The notes under the pieces were generated by a model. That model worked only from the letters and a program-made list of their open reading frames with translations, was not told the origin of the DNA and searched no databases. Below, piece after piece: positions 3,367-64,000 of a stretch of 64,000 nucleotides of DNA. Position numbers and translations under genes: made by a program. Within the stretch, counting starts at the first letter, position 1, and every line of letters starts with the position of its first letter. Origin of the DNA: an uncultured Oscillospiraceae bacterium (GTDB taxonomy: Bacteria; Bacillota; Clostridia; Oscillospirales; Ruminococcaceae); the NCBI GenBank assembly GCA_949285935.1, contig CASEAH010000011.1, positions 24,651-88,650 on the forward strand, given 5' to 3'.

Positions 3367-3686
3367 TTCCTCCGCTTTTTTGGGGGATTGCTTCCCAGCG
3401 CCTCACAGGTGATGCGCGTAAGTTCCGTCATCTGTTCCCGATCCTCCACATCCTCCACCAGGAAGGAGTCTTTGGCTCCCTCATAGGGCGGGGCCTTGGG
3501 CAGGTCGGGGAATGCCGCTTCCCCCTGGGGAGTGACCTTTACAAAAAGCTGATCGTCGCAGATGACGGCAAAAAACACATTGTTGCAGTAAAGGCCGTAT
3601 TCACCGAACATTTTCCGGGTGCGGATGGCTCCGGCCTCCTGCAGCTGCTCAGCCACATAGTTCACAAAATCCGGATGAGACGCCAT
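3363..3686 (-). CDS. TfoX/Sxy N-terminal domain protein
   Basis: 107 residues with the TfoX-N signature: RTRKMFGEYGLYCNNVFFAVICDD, then LFVKVTPQG and PYEGAKDSF. Only the N-terminal domain is present; the C-terminal helix-hairpin domain of Sxy is absent, as is usual for short Firmicutes homologues found next to small-molecule-binding proteins. A consensus AGGAGG lies just inside the stop of the WYL regulator, and the next gene starts four bases before this one ends. The role is unknown; competence function should not be assumed. Confidence 0.85.
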   Translation of the reverse strand: MASHPDFVNYVAEQLQEAGAIRTRKMFGEYGLYCNNVFFAVICDDQLFVKVTPQGEAAFPDLPKAPPYEGAKDSFLVEDVEDREQMTELTRITCEALGSNPPKKRRK

Positions 3687-3687
3687 G

Positions 3688-4596
3688 TCAATTCCTCCTG
3701 TAACGGACGGCCAGTGTTTTGGTCAAATCCCTAAGTCTTTCCCGCAGCTCTTCCGGCTGCAGCAGTTCCGCCTTGTCTCCAAAGGTCAGGACCCAACTGA
3801 GTACGCTGTCCGCGTCAGGAAATCCGCCGGTAAAGCGCAGCCTGCCATCCGGCTCCATCGTGAAGCGGTCCGCACCGTACTCCTCCACCAGCCGCCAGCG
3901 ACAGGCCGGTTCAAACAGAACGGTGACCTGATATTTCACGGGAAAGACCCGTTCCGGCTCCAGGCTGGGCAGCGGTGCACAGCGAGGGGTGAAGGGTTCG
4001 CCGGTGGTAAGTTCCGTCATGCGGTTGAGTTTAAAAAGGCGGAAATCCTTCCGCATCTGGCACCAGCCCCACACATACCAGGCAGACCAGTGGAACACCA
4101 GGTAGTAGGGTTCGACGGTGCGGACCGACTCCCCTTTGGGGGAAAAATAGGTAAAATGGATGGTGCGGTGCTGCTCAATGGCCCCCTGAATGAGCTCAAT
4201 CTTTGGCGGCAGGCTGGTCTTGTACCAGGATGAGAGATCAATGAGCATGTGGGCGCCGCCGGGCACCAATCCTCCTGTCCCGGCGGACAGCTTCTCCATC
4301 AGCTGGGCATAGCGCCGGGTACCGCTGACGCTGTCCAGGCTCCGCAGCCCTGCCAGAATGGCCTGCATCTCCGGATCGGTTAGCACTGTACGATCCACCC
4401 GGTAGCCCTCCACGATGGAAATGCCGCCGCCCGCGCCCTGGGCGGTGGAGATGGGAATGCCCGCCCGGCACAGGGACTCGATGTCCCGCTGGATGGTCCG
4501 GCGGGATACCTCGAACTGCTCCGCCAGCTCCGGGGCGGTGACCTTTTCCCGTTGAAGCAGGATGGACAGGATGCCAATGAGCCGTTCCATCTTCAT
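3688..4596 (-). CDS. WYL-domain HTH transcriptional regulator (YafY type)
   Basis: About 302 residues. The N-terminal HTH (residues 1-55) has ERLIGILSILLQREKVTAPE and SRRTIQRDIESL, followed by a WYL domain containing YYLVFHWSAWYVWGW and FRLFKLNRM, and a C-terminal extension. WYL regulators sense small ligands or nucleotides. It is the first gene of a tightly packed leftward operon, so it probably controls that operon and itself. A GTG at 4605 is also possible, but ATG at 4596 has better spacing to AGGAAAGG. A perfect TATAAT (4733-4738, minus strand) and a dyad at 4745-4770 lie upstream. Confidence 0.88.
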   Translation of the reverse strand: MKMERLIGILSILLQREKVTAPELAEQFEVSRRTIQRDIESLCRAGIPISTAQGAGGGISIVEGYRVDRTVLTDPEMQAILAGLRSLDSVSGTRRYAQLMEKLSAGTGGLVPGGAHMLIDLSSWYKTSLPPKIELIQGAIEQHRTIHFTYFSPKGESVRTVEPYYLVFHWSAWYVWGWCQMRKDFRLFKLNRMTELTTGEPFTPRCAPLPSLEPERVFPVKYQVTVLFEPACRWRLVEEYGADRFTMEPDGRLRFTGGFPDADSVLSWVLTFGDKAELLQPEELRERLRDLTKTLAVRYRRN

Positions 4597-17324: not shown

Positions 17325-17336
17325 GTACATGGTTTT

Positions 17337-17490
<154 letters not shown>

Positions 17491-17534
17491 GGCTGCTTTT
17501 CCCATGCCCTTTGGGCGGGAAGCCTGCGACCATT

Positions 17535-17571: not shown

Positions 17572-17632
17572 TTTCCGACAACACCCCCGAACAAACCTGC
17601 AAAAATATTCTATTTTTTTGGAGGTTGGCAGC

Positions 17633-18178
17633 ATGCAAAGAACATCTCAGCGCACCAGAAGAATCACCATTCTCGGCCTCATGGCCGCCGTTTCCATTAT
17701 TCTGGTCTATTTTATCCGTTTCCCCATTTTCCCGTCGGCGCCCTTTTTGGAGTACGATCCCGCCGATATCCCCATTTTTATCTGCACTTTTCTGTTCGGG
17801 CCATGGTGGGGCCTGGCTTTGACGGTAGTGGTCAGCTTTATCCAGGGCTTTACCGTAAGTGCCGGCAGTACCATCATCGGTGTGATCATGCACATTCTGG
17901 CAACCGGATCTTTCGCTCTGGTGGCCGGCTTTCTGTACCGGCGCAATAAAACCCGCCGCAGCGCCGTTGTCGCGCTTCTGGCCGGGGTTGTGGTGATGGT
18001 TGCGGTCATGGCCCTCTGCAATCTGGTTTTCACCCCCATCTTTATGAAGACTCCTGTGGACGTGGTGCTCCAGATGCTGGTGCCGGTGATCATCCCCTTC
18101 AATCTCATTAAAGCCGGAGCCAATGCCGCCATTACCTTCCTGGTATACAAAAAGCTGGCCGGCGTCATCCCTCACTGA
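17633..18178 (+). CDS. ribU: Riboflavin ECF transporter S component RibU
   Basis: 181 residues, about six membrane helices. RibU-like features: ITILGLMAAVSIILVYFIRF near the N-terminus, then FLEYDPADIPIFICTFLFGP (the FLEYDPADIP motif of riboflavin-binding S components), GSTIIGVIMHILATGS and a final FNLIKAGANAAITFLVYK. It captures riboflavin and works with a shared ECF energising module encoded elsewhere. The FMN riboswitch upstream fits this. The start at 17633 follows GGAGG by 8 nt. Confidence 0.95.
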   Translation: MQRTSQRTRRITILGLMAAVSIILVYFIRFPIFPSAPFLEYDPADIPIFICTFLFGPWWGLALTVVVSFIQGFTVSAGSTIIGVIMHILATGSFALVAGFLYRRNKTRRSAVVALLAGVVVMVAVMALCNLVFTPIFMKTPVDVVLQMLVPVIIPFNLIKAGANAAITFLVYKKLAGVIPH

Positions 18179-19693: not shown

Positions 19694-19714
19694 ATTATGG
19701 TCAACTGAATATCG

Positions 19715-19814
19715 TCTTATCAAGAGTGGTGGAGGGAACAGACCCTGTGAAGCCCGGCAACCTGTCCCAAAAGGATAAGGTGCCAAATTCTGCGGAGATT
19801 TCCGAGAGATGAGA
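19715..19814 (+). ncRNA. SAM-I riboswitch (S-box)
   Basis: P1 TCTTATC (19715-19721) pairs with GATGAGA (19808-19814). Conserved elements are visible in order: AAGAGTGGTGGAGGGAA, CAGACCC, TGTGAAGCCCGGCAACC, AAGGTGCCAAATTC, GAGATTTCCGAGAGATGAG. A terminator follows. Binding of S-adenosylmethionine should end transcription before metK. Confidence 0.95.
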
Positions 19815-19822
19815 ATCATTGA

Positions 19823-19849: not shown

Positions 19850-19885
19850 GTTCCGGGTAAGCTGCTTATGAAAGGATGTCGAAAA

Positions 19886-21061
<1,176 letters not shown>

Positions 21062-21199: not shown

Positions 21200-22030
21200 A
21201 TGAAAATGAACCAATATGATGATCGTTTCGGCCGCCATAATCCCAATTCTCCGGATTGCTGCTGCCGTACCTGCAGATGCTGCGTAGGCCCTCAAGGACC
21301 CAGAGGCCCTCAAGGACCCACAGGACCCCAGGGGCCTGAAGGGCCTCAGGGACCCGAAGGACCTCAGGGGCTCACAGGACCCCAGGGACCCACAGGACCC
21401 CAAGGACCCACAGGACCCCAAGGACCCGAAGGACCTCAGGGACCCGAAGGGCCTCAGGGACCCGAAGGGCCTCAGGGACCCGAAGGACCCCAGGGACCTG
21501 AAGGACCTCAGGGACCCACAGGACCCCAGGGACCCGAAGGACCTCAGGGACCCACAGGACCTCAGGGACCCGAAGGACCCCAAGGTCCCACAGGGCCTCA
21601 GGGACCTGCGGGAGTCATTCCTGATGAAGCTTTTGCTTCTTTTGCCAACGCGCAGTACACTTTAATCAACCGGAATTTAATTACTCTCTTTCCGGATATT
21701 ACCGATTCCACCGGTGCCATTACCTCTCCCGATACGGAGCATATCACTTTGACGCCCGGCTATTATCTGATCTCTTACAAAGTCTCCGCCCAGCTTCGAA
21801 ATCCCGGATATATTCAAGTGACACCCAGCTACAACGGCGCTCCCCATTTGGAGACGGGGATCTACTTTGCCACCGGATCAGAAAATTCCACCGCAGGCGG
21901 CTCTGCCTTTCTCATTCTCCGGGCTCCGGTGCAAACCTCGTTTTTCCTCACGTATAACGGCTCTGCCAATGGCCTGGATGGAGAAGTAAACCTGACCATC
22001 CTGAAACTGAGCCGCCCCATGCCCTCCTGA
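21200..22030 (+). CDS. Collagen-like triple-helix repeat protein (BclA-type)
   Basis: 276 residues in three parts: a cysteine-rich N-terminus ([11 protein letters not shown], residues 19-28), about 36 uninterrupted Gly-X-Y triplets (residues 30-138, mainly GPQGPE and GPQGPT), and a 138-residue C-terminal globular domain rich in beta strands ([33 protein letters not shown]), as in the trimerising domains of exosporium glycoproteins. The protein likely forms a trimeric surface filament, probably on spores. No signal peptide or sortase signal, which fits assembly from the mother cell. AGGAAGG lies 5 nt before the start. Confidence 0.9.
21287..21613 (+). repeat. Tandem Gly-X-Y coding repeat
   Basis: About 327 bases of units such as GGACCCGAAGGACCTCAG and GGACCCACAGGACCCCAG, near-identical at 9- and 18-base periods. 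Only a few residues vary (E, T, L, R, A at the Y position). Such arrays change length by slippage between strains. Confidence 0.9.
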
Positions 22031-57262: not shown

Positions 57263-58309
57263 TCAGTAATGGATCACATCCGCTGATTCACGGATGCGGC
57301 GCACCGTTTCGGCTCCTTCCGGCGAAACAAAGTACCGGTAGGTGCTTTCCGGCACCAGCGCCTTCATTTCTTCCATCCGCCCTTCCTGGATCAGTTGGCG
57401 CACCGCCGAGGCGCTGATGGCTGAACCGCCCTGCTCCTGCCTGGGCAGGACCACACACCGGATCCCCTTCCGGGGCAGTTCCTCTGCCATAACAGCGTTG
57501 TAGATCCCCGTCACCTGGCTGAAAGGCTCCTCCCCCACATACCTGGCCCGGATTCCCAACTGGGCGGCAATCCCGCCAAAGACCTGAAGATCCAGCCTGG
57601 CCTGGGCGCGGATCACATCCTGGCTGTCCTTGATAAAGTAAGAGGGAAAGGTTGCGCTGGAGATCATGTAGGGGCCGGTGGTGTGGAGGGTCACATTGTC
57701 CAGATGCGCCACACCTTCCCGTACCAGGCGGTACCGTGTTTCAAAGGGCACCAGCGATACATCTTCCGAAACCACAAACAGATGGACCCGGTCGTTTTCC
57801 GCCGCCGCCCGCTCCACCAGATACCGGTGCCCCAGGGTAAAGGGGTTGGCATTCATCACCACGGCTGCCCGGCTTTCCCCCGGCCCGCCGTCTCCCAGGC
57901 TCTTCAGATAGCCGGCAAAGCCTCCCCTTCGGTTTTCCATAAACACCACCTGCCCCGGCACACGGCAGATCTCGTAAAAGCCCAGGTCAGCGAAGAATTT
58001 GGCGGTATCACATTTGGTATAAACAAAAAGGTCAAAGATCCCCCGCTGGGCCTGGTAACTGATGAGCCGGGAGATCACCCGGTTGAGCAGCCCCTCGCCC
58101 TGATGACGGGAATCCACCGCCATACACCGCAGGGTATTGCGGAATACCGATCCGGTGGCGATCAGTTGGCCATCGTCATACAGGCCGATGGTGTATTCCA
58201 GGTTTGCATCCCGGCGGATGCCCTCCCGCTCCAGCAGGGCATCCAGCTGGGCCATGGCGGTGCTGCTGCCTGGGTAGATCTCATATTCCTGGTATTCGCC
58301 GTCAAACAC
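57263..58309 (-). CDS. citC: [Citrate (pro-3S)-lyase] ligase
   Basis: 348 residues. The N-terminal GNAT-like domain (LRCMAVDSRHQGEGLLNRV) and the C-terminal nucleotidyltransferase domain (VVMNANPFTLGHRYLVERAA, the HIGH-type site; ISASAVRQLI) are the CitC architecture. It acetylates the prosthetic group of citrate lyase with acetate and ATP, switching the enzyme on. The GTG at 58309 is 8 nt after AAGGAGG and gives VFDGEYQEY; earlier ATG reading is rejected. It diverges from the CitXG fusion across about 145 nt. Confidence 0.93.
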   Translation of the reverse strand: MFDGEYQEYEIYPGSSTAMAQLDALLEREGIRRDANLEYTIGLYDDGQLIATGSVFRNTLRCMAVDSRHQGEGLLNRVISRLISYQAQRGIFDLFVYTKCDTAKFFADLGFYEICRVPGQVVFMENRRGGFAGYLKSLGDGGPGESRAAVVMNANPFTLGHRYLVERAAAENDRVHLFVVSEDVSLVPFETRYRLVREGVAHLDNVTLHTTGPYMISSATFPSYFIKDSQDVIRAQARLDLQVFGGIAAQLGIRARYVGEEPFSQVTGIYNAVMAEELPRKGIRCVVLPRQEQGGSAISASAVRQLIQEGRMEEMKALVPESTYRYFVSPEGAETVRRIRESADVIHY

Positions 58310-58454
58310 GCTGCCTGCCTCCTTTTGCTTGTCCGTCTTTTCAAGAATAGGATACACGATTTTTTTCGCTTTGAATAGTGCCCCGCCGCTTTCTTTATGA
58401 TACAATAGCATCAGTGCCCACCGGCAAAAACACGACGTAAGGAGCCCTGTCCCT

Positions 58455-60269
58455 ATGAACAATCATTCCTGCGGCCCGGTCTGCCTGGAAGAAATGCTGG
58501 AAGCCCGGGAGCAGCGGGTAAAGCGCCAGCAGGCGCTGCTGAAAACCTGGGGTGTGCCCCTGGTCAGCTTTACCCTCAATCTGGCCGGTCCCTACAAGCG
58601 TTCTCTCTCGGCTGACCGGGCCTTTGACGAAGGCTGCCGTCTGATTCTGGACCAGCTGCGCCGTCACGGCCTGGCTCCTCTGGCCCGGGAAGAAGACCGT
58701 GCCAAAACCGGCTGTGAACTGCGCCTGGCCGTGGCGGGGGATGCGGTCCGCATCAAGGAACTTATGTCCCGGATCGAGGAATCCTCCGATCTGGGACGTC
58801 TTCTGGATATTGACGTGCTGGATACTTCGGGGCGCAAGCTCTCCCGGGAAACTATGGGAGGCCGGGGCCGCCGCTGCCTGGTATGCGGCGGAGACGCCTT
58901 TGCCTGCGCCCGCAATCGCTCCCACAGTGTGGAAGAACTGCGCCGCCGCACCCGGGAGATCATCCTGGGGCATTTTGACGGCAGGCTGTGGGACCATATC
59001 GCCGCGCTGGCGGTACGGGGGCTGCTGTACGAGGTGTCCGTCACCCCCAAGCCTGGGCTGGTGGACCGGGCCAATTCCGGCGCACACCAGGATATGGATA
59101 TTTTTACCTTTATGGACAGCGCCAGCGTCCTGCTTCCCTATTTCCGCCAATGCGCCGCGTTGGGAGGGGCGCTGCAGGACGAGGATCCCGCCGGCCTCTT
59201 CGCCCGGCTCCGCTATCCGGGCCAGCTGGCGGAGGAGGCCATGCTTCAGGCCACAGGCGGAGTCAACACCCATAAGGGGGCCATTTTCTCCCTGGGGATC
59301 CTCTGCGCCGCCATGGGGCGGCTGGCCGTTCTGGGAACCCCCTGGACGCCGGAGTCTCTGGGCGCCGCGGCATCCGCTATGGCCACCCCCGCTCTGCGGG
59401 ATTTTGAAGGAGTTGCTGCCGCCACCGCCGCTACTTTTGGCGAAAAATTATACTGTGCCGCCGGGATCACCGGGATCCGCGGGGAAGCAGCCGCCGGGTT
59501 CCCTTCGGTTCGCCGGTATGGCCTGCCGGTTCTGCAGGAGCGCCTGAGACGGGGAGACGGCCCCAACGCCGCCGGAACGGCTGCTTTGACCCACCTGATG
59601 GCCCATGTGGAAGATACCAATGTGATCGCCCGTTCCAGTCTGGAGCGCCAGCGGCAGCTGCGGTCTTCCATGGCGGCCCGTCTGGAGCAGGGAGAGCTTT
59701 CTTCCGGGGAGCTGGCGGAAATGGACCGGGCGTATATCCGGGAAAACATCAGCCCCGGCGGATGTGCCGATCTGCTGGCTGTCACCTTCCTGTTTCATTT
59801 TGCCCAAACCTCTTCCCTGAACACCGGCAAGCTGCTGGAAGAACTTTTTCCCCGGGAGGGGCTGGAGGGCGTAAACCGGGCCCTGGGCCGTCCTTACACC
59901 CTGGAAGGCACCATCATCCACGGCCGGGCCCTGGGCCGCACGGTAGGGATGCCCACCGCCAATCTGGATCCGGCTGCCGGAAGCGTCCTGCCGCCCCACG
60001 GGGTTTACGCCACCTTGTTCCGTTTTGACGGCAGGGAACAGGCCGGGCTGACCAATGTGGGGCCCCGGCCTTCGGTGGGCGGCGACCAGGTGACGGTTGA
60101 AACCTACCTTCCGGATTTTGAAGGAGATCTGTATGGCCGGCGGGTGCTGCTGGAATTCCGCGGCTTTGTCCGGGAGGTGCGCAAAATGAGCGGTCTGGAG
60201 GAGGTCCACCGGCAAGTGGAACGGGACCTGGATGCTGCCAGGATGATTCTGGAGGAGACGGCGCTATGA
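58455..60269 (+). CDS. CitX-CitG-riboflavin kinase-like triple fusion
   Basis: 604 residues in three parts. Residues 1-170 are CitX (LAGPYKRSLSADRAFDEG, GRLLDIDVLD, CARNRSHSVEEL), which attaches the prosthetic group to CitD. Residues 180-460 are CitG (SVTPKPGLVDRANSGAHQDM, GGVNTHKGAIFSLGIL, HVEDTN), which makes triphosphoribosyl-dephospho-CoA. Residues 470-598 match the riboflavin kinase half of RibF: GTIIHGRALGRTVGMPTANL, PHGVYATL, LTNVGPRPS, the Glu in VETYLPDFEGDLYG, and REVRKMSGLEEV. The nucleotidyltransferase half of RibF is absent. CitXG fusions are known; the third domain on them is, to my knowledge, unusual. yaaA overlaps its stop by four bases. ATG 58455 has AAGGAG upstream. Confidence 0.92.
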   Translation: MNNHSCGPVCLEEMLEAREQRVKRQQALLKTWGVPLVSFTLNLAGPYKRSLSADRAFDEGCRLILDQLRRHGLAPLAREEDRAKTGCELRLAVAGDAVRIKELMSRIEESSDLGRLLDIDVLDTSGRKLSRETMGGRGRRCLVCGGDAFACARNRSHSVEELRRRTREIILGHFDGRLWDHIAALAVRGLLYEVSVTPKPGLVDRANSGAHQDMDIFTFMDSASVLLPYFRQCAALGGALQDEDPAGLFARLRYPGQLAEEAMLQATGGVNTHKGAIFSLGILCAAMGRLAVLGTPWTPESLGAAASAMATPALRDFEGVAAATAATFGEKLYCAAGITGIRGEAAAGFPSVRRYGLPVLQERLRRGDGPNAAGTAALTHLMAHVEDTNVIARSSLERQRQLRSSMAARLEQGELSSGELAEMDRAYIRENISPGGCADLLAVTFLFHFAQTSSLNTGKLLEELFPREGLEGVNRALGRPYTLEGTIIHGRALGRTVGMPTANLDPAAGSVLPPHGVYATLFRFDGREQAGLTNVGPRPSVGGDQVTVETYLPDFEGDLYGRRVLLEFRGFVREVRKMSGLEEVHRQVERDLDAARMILEETAL

Positions 60270-61015
60270 TTGTCATCATCTCTCCCGCCAAACAGATGTA
60301 CTGGGACCCCGATTCCCTGTCTCCCGCCGGAGCGCCCCTGTTTCTGGATCGCTCCCGGGAATTGCTGGCCCGGCTGCGGGAGTTTTCTCTTCCTCAGCTG
60401 CGGGTCCTTTTGGGCTGCAGCGAAAAGCTGGCCTCCCAGGCCTTTGCCATGTTCCGGGATATGGATCTGGACAGGCAGCCCGCCGCCCCCGCTCTTCTGT
60501 CCTATCGGGGGATCCAGTACCAGTACATGCTGCCCGGCGCCTTTACGGACAGCCAGCTGGCTTACCTTCAGGAGCATCTGCGTATCCTGTCGGGCTTTTA
60601 CGGACTGCTGCGCCCCCTGGACGGCATCCTTCCCTACCGGCTGGAAATGCAGGCCCGGTTGGATGTGGGTGCTTTCCGGGATCTGTATGCCTTTTGGGGG
60701 GATACGCTGTCGGCAGCGCTGGAAAAGGAAGCAGAGGGTGTGATCCTCAATCTGGCTTCCGAGGAGTATGCCCGGGCCGTCCGGCCTCACCTCTCCCCTG
60801 GAATCCGTTGGGTCACTCCGGTATTTGGTCAGCTGGAAAACGGCCGTCTGCGGGAAAAGGGCGTGTATGTGAAAATGGCCCGGGGCGAAATGGTCCGCTT
60901 CCTGGCAGAAAAATCTGTCCGTGAGCCGGAAGAGATCCGAAACTTTTCCCGCCTGGGCTTCCGCTTTGATCCTGCCCTTTCTTCCCCCGACATCCCGGTA
61001 TTTTTGAAGGAATGA
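60266..61015 (+). CDS. yaaA: Peroxide stress protein YaaA family (UPF0246)
   Basis: 249 residues. Family landmarks: IIISPAKQM-type start (MIVIISPAKQM), LLSYRGIQYQYM, LRILSGFYGLLRPLDGI, YRLEMQARL, LNLASEEYARAV, VYVKMARGEMVRFL. The E. coli protein binds DNA and limits free iron under oxidative stress. It overlaps the triple fusion by ATGA, so it is translated with it, an uncommon neighbour for citrate lyase genes. Full length. Confidence 0.93.
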   Translation: MIVIISPAKQMYWDPDSLSPAGAPLFLDRSRELLARLREFSLPQLRVLLGCSEKLASQAFAMFRDMDLDRQPAAPALLSYRGIQYQYMLPGAFTDSQLAYLQEHLRILSGFYGLLRPLDGILPYRLEMQARLDVGAFRDLYAFWGDTLSAALEKEAEGVILNLASEEYARAVRPHLSPGIRWVTPVFGQLENGRLREKGVYVKMARGEMVRFLAEKSVREPEEIRNFSRLGFRFDPALSSPDIPVFLKE

Positions 61016-61315: not shown

Positions 61316-62875
61316 TCATTCGTCAAAGCTGTAAGGTTTGATTTCCCTTACCACATCCAGCAGGGTCCCGTCCCGGGCCTCCAGAATCGCCACCACCCTG
61401 TCTCCAAAGCGGACAGGGTCGGGAACTCCTACCATAGAATAGGCTTTGTCCCTCAGCTCCTCAATGGTCACATGGGGGACTCCTGCCGCGTCCAGGGCCT
61501 CCATCAGGTCCCGGCGCCTGGGATTGACCGCCGCGCCGTATTCGGTCACCAGAATATCCACCGATTCGCCGGGGGTAGTCACCGTAACGACGCTGTCGCA
61601 GACGGTGGGGATCCGCCCTCGTACCAGAGGCGCCACAATAATCGTGCATTTGGCCCCGTTGGCGGTATCAGGATGCCCGCCGGGAGCGCCCCGAAGGATC
61701 CCATCCGATCCGGTAATGACATTTACATTAAAATGAACGTCGATCTCCAGCGCCGCCAGCACCACAAAGTCCAGTTTGTTTACATAAGCGCCCTTATTCA
61801 TGGGATTGGCATACTCGGAGCAGGTCACCTCAAAGTGGCCGGGGGTGACCCCCAAAGAAGCGATGGCCCCGGTATCAAAGTCCTGGGTATCCGCCAGGTA
61901 CTTCACATAGCCTTCCTTGAGCAGATCTACCATGGGGGTGGAGATCCCCCCTACGATCCACCCCATGCGGATTCCTTTTTCCTGCATATATTTTTTAAGG
62001 AACAGGGTGACCGCAATGGAAGGCCCTCCCACACCGGTCTGAAAGGAAAAACCGTCCTTGAAGTAGGGCGTGGCCTTCATGATCCCGGCGCATTTTTCGG
62101 CAATCTTCAGGTCCCTGGGGTTATCGGTGATGCGTGCGGCGGCACTGGCGATTTTGGCGGGATTGCCGATCTCATCCACTACCACCACATAATCCACGTT
62201 CACACAGCTGATGCTGCAAGGCTGGTTGGGGAACGGCACCAGGGTGTCGGTAATGATCACTACCTTGTCGGCATGCCGGGCGTCCACGTCGGCATACGAC
62301 AATACGCCGCAGTCGGATTTTCCGCCCTTCCCGCTGGCATTGCCGTACTCGTCGCTGGTGGGCGCTCCGATAAACGCCACGTCAATATGGACCTCGCCGC
62401 ATTCAACGGCCCGGACGCGTCCCCCATGGGTGCGCAGGATGGCGGGAGTTTTCAGCTTCCCGGTGGAAACGGCCTCGCCGATTTTTCCGCGGATCCCGCT
62501 GGTCTGAAGGCCTGTGACGATCCCCTGTTCGATGTACTCCGCAATGGGATCATGGGCCGCGCCCATGGATGACGCCGCAATGGTAATGTCCCGTATTCCC
62601 AGGTCAGCCACTTCCTTCATTACCATATTGGCAATATAATCCCCATCCCGAAAATGATGATGAAAAGAAATGGTCATGCCGTCCCTGAGGCCGCACTGGA
62701 GAATCGCTTCCCGGATGGAGGCCACCACTTTGCTTTCTCTGGGCATGACGCTGGCCCGCACGGTAGGCCCCGCCTTGGTATACTGAGCATTTTCCCGGTA
62801 AGCGTTGCCCTGGAATACCTCTCTGCCGCCAGTGAGCAACTGGTCGGGGATTTCTCTGCCTACTGCATTTCTCAT
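61316..62875 (-). CDS. citF: Citrate lyase alpha subunit (citrate CoA-transferase)
   Basis: 519 residues. CitF landmarks: MTISFHHHFRDGDYIANMVM, IRDITIAASSMGAAHDPIAE, GAPTSDEYGNASGKGG, QTGVGGPSIAVTLFL, GVTPGHFEVTCSEYANP and NVITGSDGILRGAPGGH. The alpha subunit swaps acetyl for citryl on the acyl carrier CitD. Starts 2 nt after the citE stop. Full length. Confidence 0.96.
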   Translation of the reverse strand: MRNAVGREIPDQLLTGGREVFQGNAYRENAQYTKAGPTVRASVMPRESKVVASIREAILQCGLRDGMTISFHHHFRDGDYIANMVMKEVADLGIRDITIAASSMGAAHDPIAEYIEQGIVTGLQTSGIRGKIGEAVSTGKLKTPAILRTHGGRVRAVECGEVHIDVAFIGAPTSDEYGNASGKGGKSDCGVLSYADVDARHADKVVIITDTLVPFPNQPCSISCVNVDYVVVVDEIGNPAKIASAAARITDNPRDLKIAEKCAGIMKATPYFKDGFSFQTGVGGPSIAVTLFLKKYMQEKGIRMGWIVGGISTPMVDLLKEGYVKYLADTQDFDTGAIASLGVTPGHFEVTCSEYANPMNKGAYVNKLDFVVLAALEIDVHFNVNVITGSDGILRGAPGGHPDTANGAKCTIIVAPLVRGRIPTVCDSVVTVTTPGESVDILVTEYGAAVNPRRRDLMEALDAAGVPHVTIEELRDKAYSMVGVPDPVRFGDRVVAILEARDGTLLDVVREIKPYSFDE

Positions 62876-62877
62876 GA

Positions 62878-63780
62878 TTACAGATCCCCCTTATACAATC
62901 CGGCTGCCCTGGCCAGAGCCAGGGTGCGTTCCGCCCCCTCCACAAAGGCGACGTCCAGCATTTTTCCATCCACTTTAAAGATGCCGATCCCCTTTTTGGC
63001 GTTCTCACGGATCGCCAGCACCACCCGCTCAGCCTCAGCAATCTCCCTGGCGGTAGGGGTAAAGATCTCGTGGACAATGGCAATCTGCTTGGGGGTAACG
63101 ATGGATTTTCCGTCAAAACCCATTTCCTTGATCAGCATGGTCTCCCGGCGGAAGCCCTCCATATCATTAAAATCGGTAAATACGGTGTCAAAGCACTGGA
63201 TGCCGGCTGCCCGGGCCGCAATGACGATATTTCCCCGGGCGACAAACAGTTCATTGCCGCTGGGATAATATTTGGTATGCAGGCAGCGGCGGTAATCGCC
63301 GCCTGACAGCGCAATGCCAAACATCCGGGGGGACGCTTTGCAAATTTCCAGGGCATTGATGATCCCCAGCGGACTTTCCAATGCCGCCATCAGCAGGGTG
63401 CGCCCCTCTTCCACACCAAATTCCTTCTCTGCCGCGGCAACCGCTTCCTCAACAATCTGCACATCCCGGGCGCTTTCGCATTTTGCAATGCGGATGCCGT
63501 CTGCCCCTCCTGCCACACATACCCGGACATCCTCCTGCCAGTGAGGGGTATCCAGGCCGTTGATACGCACCAGACGCTCCGTATCTCCGTAATCCACGCT
63601 TTTCAGGGCATGGTAGAGGGAAAATCGGGCGGAATCCTTCTGATTTTCGGAAACGGCGTCCTCCAGATCCAGAATGACGCTGTCGCTGCCGTAGATGTAG
63701 GCATCCTTGATGAGGCTGGGCTTCTGGGCGCTGAGGAACATCATGGTTCTTCTGAGCCTGTTTTTATCCGGCTTTTTCAT
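62878..63780 (-). CDS. citE: Citrate lyase beta subunit (citryl-ACP lyase)
   Basis: 300 residues. CitE/HpcH aldolase fold: RRTMMFLSAQKPSLIKDAYI, SDSVILDLEDAVSENQKDSA, RLVRINGLDTPHW, ALESPLGIINA, and GFDGKSIVTPKQIAIVHEIF. It cleaves citryl-ACP to oxaloacetate and acetyl-ACP. GGGGAGGGG precedes ATG 63780, which overlaps the citD stop by four bases (ATGA); a reading from 63843 would extend into citD. Confidence 0.96.
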   Translation of the reverse strand: MKKPDKNRLRRTMMFLSAQKPSLIKDAYIYGSDSVILDLEDAVSENQKDSARFSLYHALKSVDYGDTERLVRINGLDTPHWQEDVRVCVAGGADGIRIAKCESARDVQIVEEAVAAAEKEFGVEEGRTLLMAALESPLGIINALEICKASPRMFGIALSGGDYRRCLHTKYYPSGNELFVARGNIVIAARAAGIQCFDTVFTDFNDMEGFRRETMLIKEMGFDGKSIVTPKQIAIVHEIFTPTAREIAEAERVVLAIRENAKKGIGIFKVDGKMLDVAFVEGAERTLALARAAGLYKGDL

Positions 63781-64000
63781 TGTACCGCCCCTCCCCATGG
63801 GATATTCTTGTCCGAAATCTCCCCTGACCGGAAAACCGCACATTCCACCCGCGCCCGCAGGGTACAGTCCAAAGCGCCCCGGTCCACGATGGTGACCCTG
63901 GCGTCCTGAACCTCCAGCCGTTCCAGGACATCCAGAACGGATGCCCGGATGGCGCGGCCATACTGGTTGATAACACTGCTGCTGATGGACAGCTCCAGCC
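63777..64000 (-). CDS. citD: Citrate lyase acyl carrier protein, C-terminal part (cut by window edge)
   Basis: The minus strand reads LELSISSSVINQYGRAIRAS at the window edge, then ERLEVQDARVTIVDRGALDC and RARVECAVFRSG, ending EISDKNIPWGGAVQ at TGA 63779-63777. This is the C-terminal part of CitD (gamma subunit); the N-terminal serine that carries the prosthetic group lies outside the window. Overlaps citE by four bases. Order citD-citE-citF is the standard one. Confidence 0.92.
   Translation of the reverse strand, partial: LELSISSSVINQYGRAIRASVLDVLERLEVQDARVTIVDRGALDCTLRARVECAVFRSGEISDKNIPWGGAVQ

Follow-up and report, generated by a model that had tools for sequence, protein, structure and literature searches.

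CitG makes triphosphoribosyl-dephospho-CoA and CitX transfers it, and we know of no kinase step that is missing from this route, which raises the question of what a riboflavin kinase (RK) domain is doing at the end of a fused CitX-CitG (CitXG) protein. The question matters for flavin supply as well, FMN and FAD being essential. Here, we describe such a protein, encoded at positions 58455-60269 (+) of the window, a stretch of 64,000 nucleotides on contig C11 (158,661 bases) in the assembly of an uncultured Oscillospiraceae bacterium (G000; 2.44 Mb, 110 contigs, 89% complete, 3.4% estimated contamination). A preliminary description of the sequence had proposed that the tail could phosphorylate riboflavin in step with citrate use, act on another nucleoside-like intermediate, or serve as a structural or sensory domain. 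We consider it likely, judging from sequence, that the tail is a working ATP:riboflavin kinase that has moved out of RibF, and that it is the general, and probably only, RK of this bacterium; on the best reading it is not a step in citrate lyase maturation.

The reading frame of the fusion gene is open for 604 codons, which rules out a stop or frame artefact, and yields a protein of 604 amino acids in which complete CitX and CitG domains share one chain with the RK domain. Pfam, with scores far above its cut-offs for all three domains, places CitX at residues 11-170 (58485-58964, +; PF03802, 167 bits) and CitG at residues 183-447 (59001-59795, +; PF01874, 257 bits), and together these two parts keep 63 of 63 positions that are at least 95% conserved in 56 other CitXG proteins. 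Against the NCBIfam models, the CitX part scores 156 and passes the cut-off of 105.25 (TIGR03124), and the CitG part scores 270.3, slightly below the cut-off of 272.3 (TIGR03125). A linker (residues 448-476; 59796-59882, +) follows, the end of which (GLEGVNRALGRPYTLEG) looks by eye like the stretch ahead of the RK module of RibF. The RK domain itself (residues 477-599; 59883-60251, +) covers positions 1-124 of the 124 positions of the Flavokinase model PF01687 at 117.7 bits (E 4.6e-34; cut-off 19.6), a score that rules out a chance match and sets aside the doubt, raised in the preliminary description, that the C-terminal part might have no significant match to an RK. The last 135 residues also match solved chains of FAD synthetases and RKs (best 1mrz, E 5e-23). 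Residues 467-602 are matched by the C-terminal part only of the NCBIfam RibF models, with scores below the whole-protein cut-offs, and consistently no PF06574 (FAD_syn) match was found by Pfam in the fusion protein. The FAD-synthetase half of RibF is thus missing, as the preliminary description had said, and lacking that N-terminal module the protein is not a bifunctional FAD synthetase. A model of the full fusion protein, built from an alignment (A4) that includes four other CitXG proteins, has a mean pLDDT of 80, with low confidence in linker residues 456-468. In fold comparisons, the predicted RK part reaches a TM-score of up to 0.75 against the Corynebacterium RK module (normalised to that module), and the predicted CitX part 0.85 against solved CitX.

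Active-site residues were read from an alignment (A3) in which conservation was counted over the 40 RK rows other than that of the fusion. In the Corynebacterium ammoniagenes enzyme, T208, N210 and E268 mutants stop FMN formation and not the FMN-to-FAD step, and the RK module is active by itself (excerpts of PMC2573891). The counterparts of these residues in the fusion protein are Thr501 and Asn503 of the PTAN motif (59955-59963, +) and, for the catalytic Glu268, Glu549 (60099-60101, +), all three of them kept. The tail retains 17 of the 23 positions that are at least 90% conserved across the 40 rows, among them P500, T501, N503, G516, Y518, E549, Y560 and R573, and deviates at the other six (A473V, V487I, T540S, E575V, F578M, L584V), none of which touches PTxN or the catalytic Glu. 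The earlier view of a plausible live kinase with intact catalytic residues therefore stands, with these six departures added to it. They weigh on our reading, F578M and T540S included: because none of the other 40 rows varies at T540 or F578, activity of the tail is to be expected but is not certain. With the RK catalytic residues and the conserved CitX and CitG positions kept, all three parts look functional. Residues 425-498 contain no in-frame ATG, GTG or TTG, so a free RK made from an internal start is not evident.

Whether the bacterium depends on this tail turns on its other flavin genes. A six-frame profile search of the assembly, which matched 10 of 14 control genomes, found a single PF01687 match, the fusion tail, and no second recognisable RK. 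FAD_syn likewise has one match in the assembly, in a ribF gene straight after truB on contig C38 (290-residue frame; L002 1474-2346). The preliminary description had asked about a separate, full RibF; a RibF is indeed present, but its RK half is ruined. Pfam lists no Flavokinase match in it at E up to 1, a range in which HMMER filters drop most matches above 0.1, and its last 110 residues share 34% identity with the RK half of a same-genus RibF (E 4e-7, small local database). Measured against 39 other RibFs, at positions with 90% conservation or more, it retains 20 of 21 in the N-terminal (FAD-synthetase) half and 5 of 19 in the C-terminal (RK) half; the losses include the catalytic Glu and all three fixed residues (P, T and N) of PTxN. 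An intact RK hidden in another frame of ribF was looked for by eye and in the six-frame search, and there is none. The AlphaFold model of this RibF still draws a barrel in the C-terminal half (mean pLDDT 91.5) and matches the whole FAD synthetase 2x0k with a TM-score of 0.84; its alignment came from intact RibFs, so the whole-FAD-synthetase fold is biased. From its residues, we judge the RK half of RibF to be dead.

With that half lost and the fusion tail the only RK found, the puzzle of a flavokinase without a step in the citrate lyase route looks resolved. Among the functions proposed in the preliminary description, plain phosphorylation of riboflavin becomes the likeliest, as a general supply of FMN; action on another nucleoside-like intermediate, or a purely structural or sensory role, is less likely, since it would leave the assembly without any recognisable RK. 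The sole FMN riboswitch found in the assembly (17332-17495, +) precedes the gene for a RibU-like riboflavin transporter S component (17630-18178, +; PF12822 87 bits, PF07155 45 bits); there is none at the fusion gene. Lumazine synthase was not found in the assembly by the search that matched 14 of 14 control genomes, and, taken with the riboswitch-controlled RibU-like gene, this indicates that riboflavin is probably taken up from outside. In the pathway that we propose, riboflavin would enter via the RibU-like transporter and be phosphorylated to FMN by the tail of the CitX-CitG protein, with Thr501 and Asn503 holding Mg-ATP and Glu549 serving as the base, and RibF, with its FAD-synthetase half only, would adenylylate FMN to FAD. 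The kinase function would in effect have shifted from RibF to CitXG. We infer that the tail is catalytic and essential, and the fused protein would then have to be made whenever FMN is needed.

The preliminary description had also allowed for an assembly error that joined two genes. The CitG-RK join is in frame, stop-free and at a domain boundary; third-position GC is even over the CitX (0.72), CitG (0.73) and RK (0.75) parts, which rules out a composition break at the fusion point; and a yaaA-family gene (60266-61015, +) overlaps the fusion stop codon by 4 bases. All of this speaks against a misjoin, which would moreover leave the ruined RK half of RibF unaccounted for. As to whether C11 and C38 come from one organism, the GC content is 0.561 for the window and 0.562 for C38, and the tetranucleotide distance between them is 0.09, compared to 0.10-0.14 when 18-kb stretches are taken from the window alone. 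For the relative G002, a 7-kb stretch gives 0.16, which falls in the range of the window's own 7-kb stretches (0.12-0.26), so that contamination by a close relative would escape a test of composition. The best matches of GlyA, encoded in the window, are in same-genus genomes (82%), as are those of TruB and the N-terminal half of RibF on C38 (68% and 57%, respectively). The two contigs are consistent with a single organism. Set against the fact that this is a single draft assembly with some estimated contamination, and that the fusion is absent from every other genome searched, these observations make an artefact of assembly or binning, be it two misjoined genes or a C11 drawn from another organism than the RibF contig, very improbable.

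The fusion is known from one genome, which counts against our reading of its function. CitX and CitG occur together in 64 ORFs among the loci examined; three of these are copies of the fusion and the remainder are 56 distinct proteins, which terminate 2-36 residues past CitG. How many CitXG proteins carry an RK tail was a matter that the preliminary description had left to a survey, and the count came to 0 of 56 others. Three further CitXG places in the family, known from matches alone, have matches that end at residues 449-456. Elsewhere (in the family, among the matches listed; in the order; in the phylum), CitG matches end at or before residue 483; those ending past residue 465 contain internal stop codons, and all fall well short of the RK end. 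No fusion was found in overlapping sets of 61 relatives, 10 genus, 396 family, 394 order and 398 phylum genomes. A pattern-based scan of public genome contigs, which may omit records from the window's own or very near genomes, returned 29 loci, of which 28 match the CitX/CitG part and one (L051) the RK part. Residues 9-450 of the fusion protein are typical CitXG, with up to 53% identity to a family member (G216). Five same-genus genomes (G001, G002, G005, G007 and G009; L068-L072) have separate neighbouring citG and citX genes, whereas the genome of the window has a fused CitXG.

The fusion gene sits in a citrate lyase cluster. It is divergent from citC, for citrate lyase ligase (57263-58462, -; start codon uncertain), and beyond the yaaA-family gene lie citF, for the alpha subunit (61316-62875, -), citE, for the beta subunit (62878-63843, -; NCBIfam 372.8 bits, below the cut-off of 443.4), and citD, for the acyl carrier protein (63777-64000, -; L064 7428-7892), an ORF that extends past the window and whose start is uncertain. 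Its strand, opposite to that of citC and citDEF, would let the fusion gene be expressed separately, with no promoter recognised. Near the gene, a promoter scan found none (0.9 expected) and a terminator scan found five (4.7 expected); both counts are close to expectation, so neither scan is informative. Elsewhere in the window, a SAM riboswitch (19714-19815, +) ahead of an S-adenosylmethionine synthetase-like gene (19868-21061; named by eye) is ordinary, and a collagen-like Gly-Pro-Gln repeat protein of 276 residues is encoded at 21200-22030 (+; by eye).

It is odd to find an essential enzyme carried by a protein that normally goes with citrate use, and two other readings take the location as their starting point. 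The RK may make FMN and also be coupled to citrate lyase maturation, with FMN supply tuned to citrate use or with active sites that interact via shared ATP, ADP or CoA-like ligands, a reading that overlaps with ours. Both the position within the citC / citDEF cluster and the retention of all 63 conserved CitX and CitG positions, by which the two functions appear to have been kept together, are in keeping with coupling. There is no sign of it in the sequence, however, the linker between the domains is predicted with low confidence, the gene runs opposite to citC and citDEF with yaaA after it and so need not share their regulation, and 56 other CitXG proteins work without an RK; we regard coupling as unlikely. 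We give an equally small chance to a sole RK built into the citrate lyase prosthetic-group enzyme in such a way that FMN formation and citrate lyase activation are mutually responsive via shared ATP, dephospho-CoA or flavin ligands. In the other reading, the substrate of the RK-like domain would be a prosthetic-group intermediate or another nucleoside instead of riboflavin. The place of the domain on CitXG and its six departures from otherwise conserved RK positions would fit that, but the domain is lacking from 56 CitXG proteins, the known route leaves no gap for a kinase, the catalytic residues match those of genuine riboflavin kinases, and the assembly would be left without any recognisable RK, all of which makes another substrate highly unlikely.

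Two of the relatives likewise have a RibF with no usable RK and hold an intact RK at another place. Both RK and FAD_syn domains are present in 58 of 61 genomes, the same three genomes being without either, and the two are adjacent in 55 of the 58 (tables compared by eye; G025 is cut by contig ends). All nine same-genus relatives have RK beside FAD_syn, and PTxN and the Glu are present in those of their RibFs that were inspected (eight of nine aligned). The domains lie apart in three genomes, namely that of the window, G026 and G058, each with a Pfam-matched RK elsewhere. In G026, the RK half of RibF (L173 896-1693, +) is ruined, and immediately behind an ECF transporter S-component gene lies a free RK (L174 3388-3810 and 3810-4493, -); in G058, RibF stops once the FAD-synthetase module is complete, and a different contig carries a free RK of 133 residues (L175 2139-2546, +; L176 2566-2967, +). 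In all three genomes, loss of RK from RibF is accompanied by an RK elsewhere.

An additional RK, fused to a winged-helix DNA-binding domain of the OmpR type, is present in four same-genus genomes (L052 5619-6302, +; L054 3614-4294, -; L056, RK at 3656-4012, -; L058 3804-4532, -), assigned by Pfam (PF01687 and PF00486) for L052, L054 and L058 and by sequence for L056. An ECF transporter S-component gene precedes the winged-helix RK in L052 and L054, with a similar gene in L056 (by eye), and no FMN riboswitch was found at these loci. These proteins are possibly flavin-sensing regulators, for which archaeal RbkR is the comparison. They also bear on the idea that the fusion tail binds flavin in a spare or regulatory capacity, the housekeeping RK being encoded in the unassembled part of the genome: at 89% completeness and 110 contigs another RK or RibF could be missing, second RKs evidently occur in the genus, and none of the winged-helix kind was found in the window's genome. 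Yet those four genomes all retain an intact RibF, whereas the RibF here is ruined, and the tail has PTxN and the catalytic Glu. We consider a spare tail improbable and retain the view that it supplies FMN.

Where the RK domain came from is less clear. A 58-row tree places the tail in a set of 12 rows (96/85, bootstrap not settled) with winged-helix RKs and RibFs of other families, and a second tree of 57 rows, to which the G058 RK was added and from which L093 and L051 were dropped beforehand for their long end branches, places it in no supported set; RK matches below 30 bits, shorter than 95 residues, or identical were left out. Tree tests did not reject a grouping of the tail with the four winged-helix RKs (p 0.24), with nine same-genus RibFs (p 0.28), or with all six other non-RibF RKs (p 0.41). 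The motifs LPPxGVY and PTAN(L/M), a combination noticed post hoc, occur together in 7 of 7 non-RibF RKs and in 0 of 50 rows counted as RibF, two of which (L125, L132) are without the FAD_syn motif looked for; LPPxGVY alone occurs in 1 of 50 RibF rows, and PTAN(L/M) alone in 2 of 50. This distribution leans towards an origin of the tail from a shared second-RK lineage, against which stands the likeness of the fusion linker to that of RibF. The fusion may be a mere accident, in which an RK gene would have landed in frame behind citXG and the RK of RibF would then have been free to decay, an order of events that we infer.

The kinase function thus seems to have departed from RibF, where its remnant has decayed, and to persist as the tail of a cofactor enzyme that is unrelated to RibF. 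The fusion and the ruined RibF together capture, with unusual clarity, how an essential domain can pass from one host protein to another. If this is true, loss of 'citXG' should kill for want of FMN, beyond abolishing citrate use. The case also bears on annotation, as the names would lead one to take this RibF for a bifunctional enzyme and the fusion protein for nothing more than a CitXG.

The fusion is real, so far confined to a single genome, and set in a convincing functional context, and we regard it as a variation on known enzymes and not as a kind of its own. For the known arrangements of RK and FAD synthetase (FADS), we rely on PMC2972280 (Yruela et al. 2010). Excerpts of PMC2972280 place both the FMN and the FAD step in the single protein RibF in 1190 of 1194 genomes, and already report FADS type II with a separate RK and the splitting of the two activities in four bacterial species. 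The RibF of this genome fits that definition of type II, as excerpted, with FAD_syn kept and a C-terminal half that is short and without PTAN, and resembles FADS type II in joining a FAD-synthetase half to a non-conserved C-terminal half; the separate RKs there are monofunctional proteins, however, and not part of a citrate lyase enzyme. The monofunctional RKs of Bacillus subtilis and Streptococcus agalactiae (PMC2972280, in excerpt), and the stand-alone RKs of G026 and G058, are likewise without FMN adenylyltransferase, whereas the fusion RK is part of CitXG and a free form is not evident. A literature search outside subscription papers did not find an RK on the citrate lyase cofactor enzyme CitXG. 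Known fused proteins of CitX (holo-citrate-lyase synthase) and CitG (triphosphoribosyl-dephospho-CoA synthase) have the same CitX-CitG part, but none of the 56 others examined has the RK tail. That tail is alike in sequence, motifs, catalytic residues and predicted fold to the RK module of RibF (FADS type I; C. ammoniagenes 2x0k, Thermotoga maritima 1mrz), but it is attached to CitX and CitG and not to an FMN adenylyltransferase.
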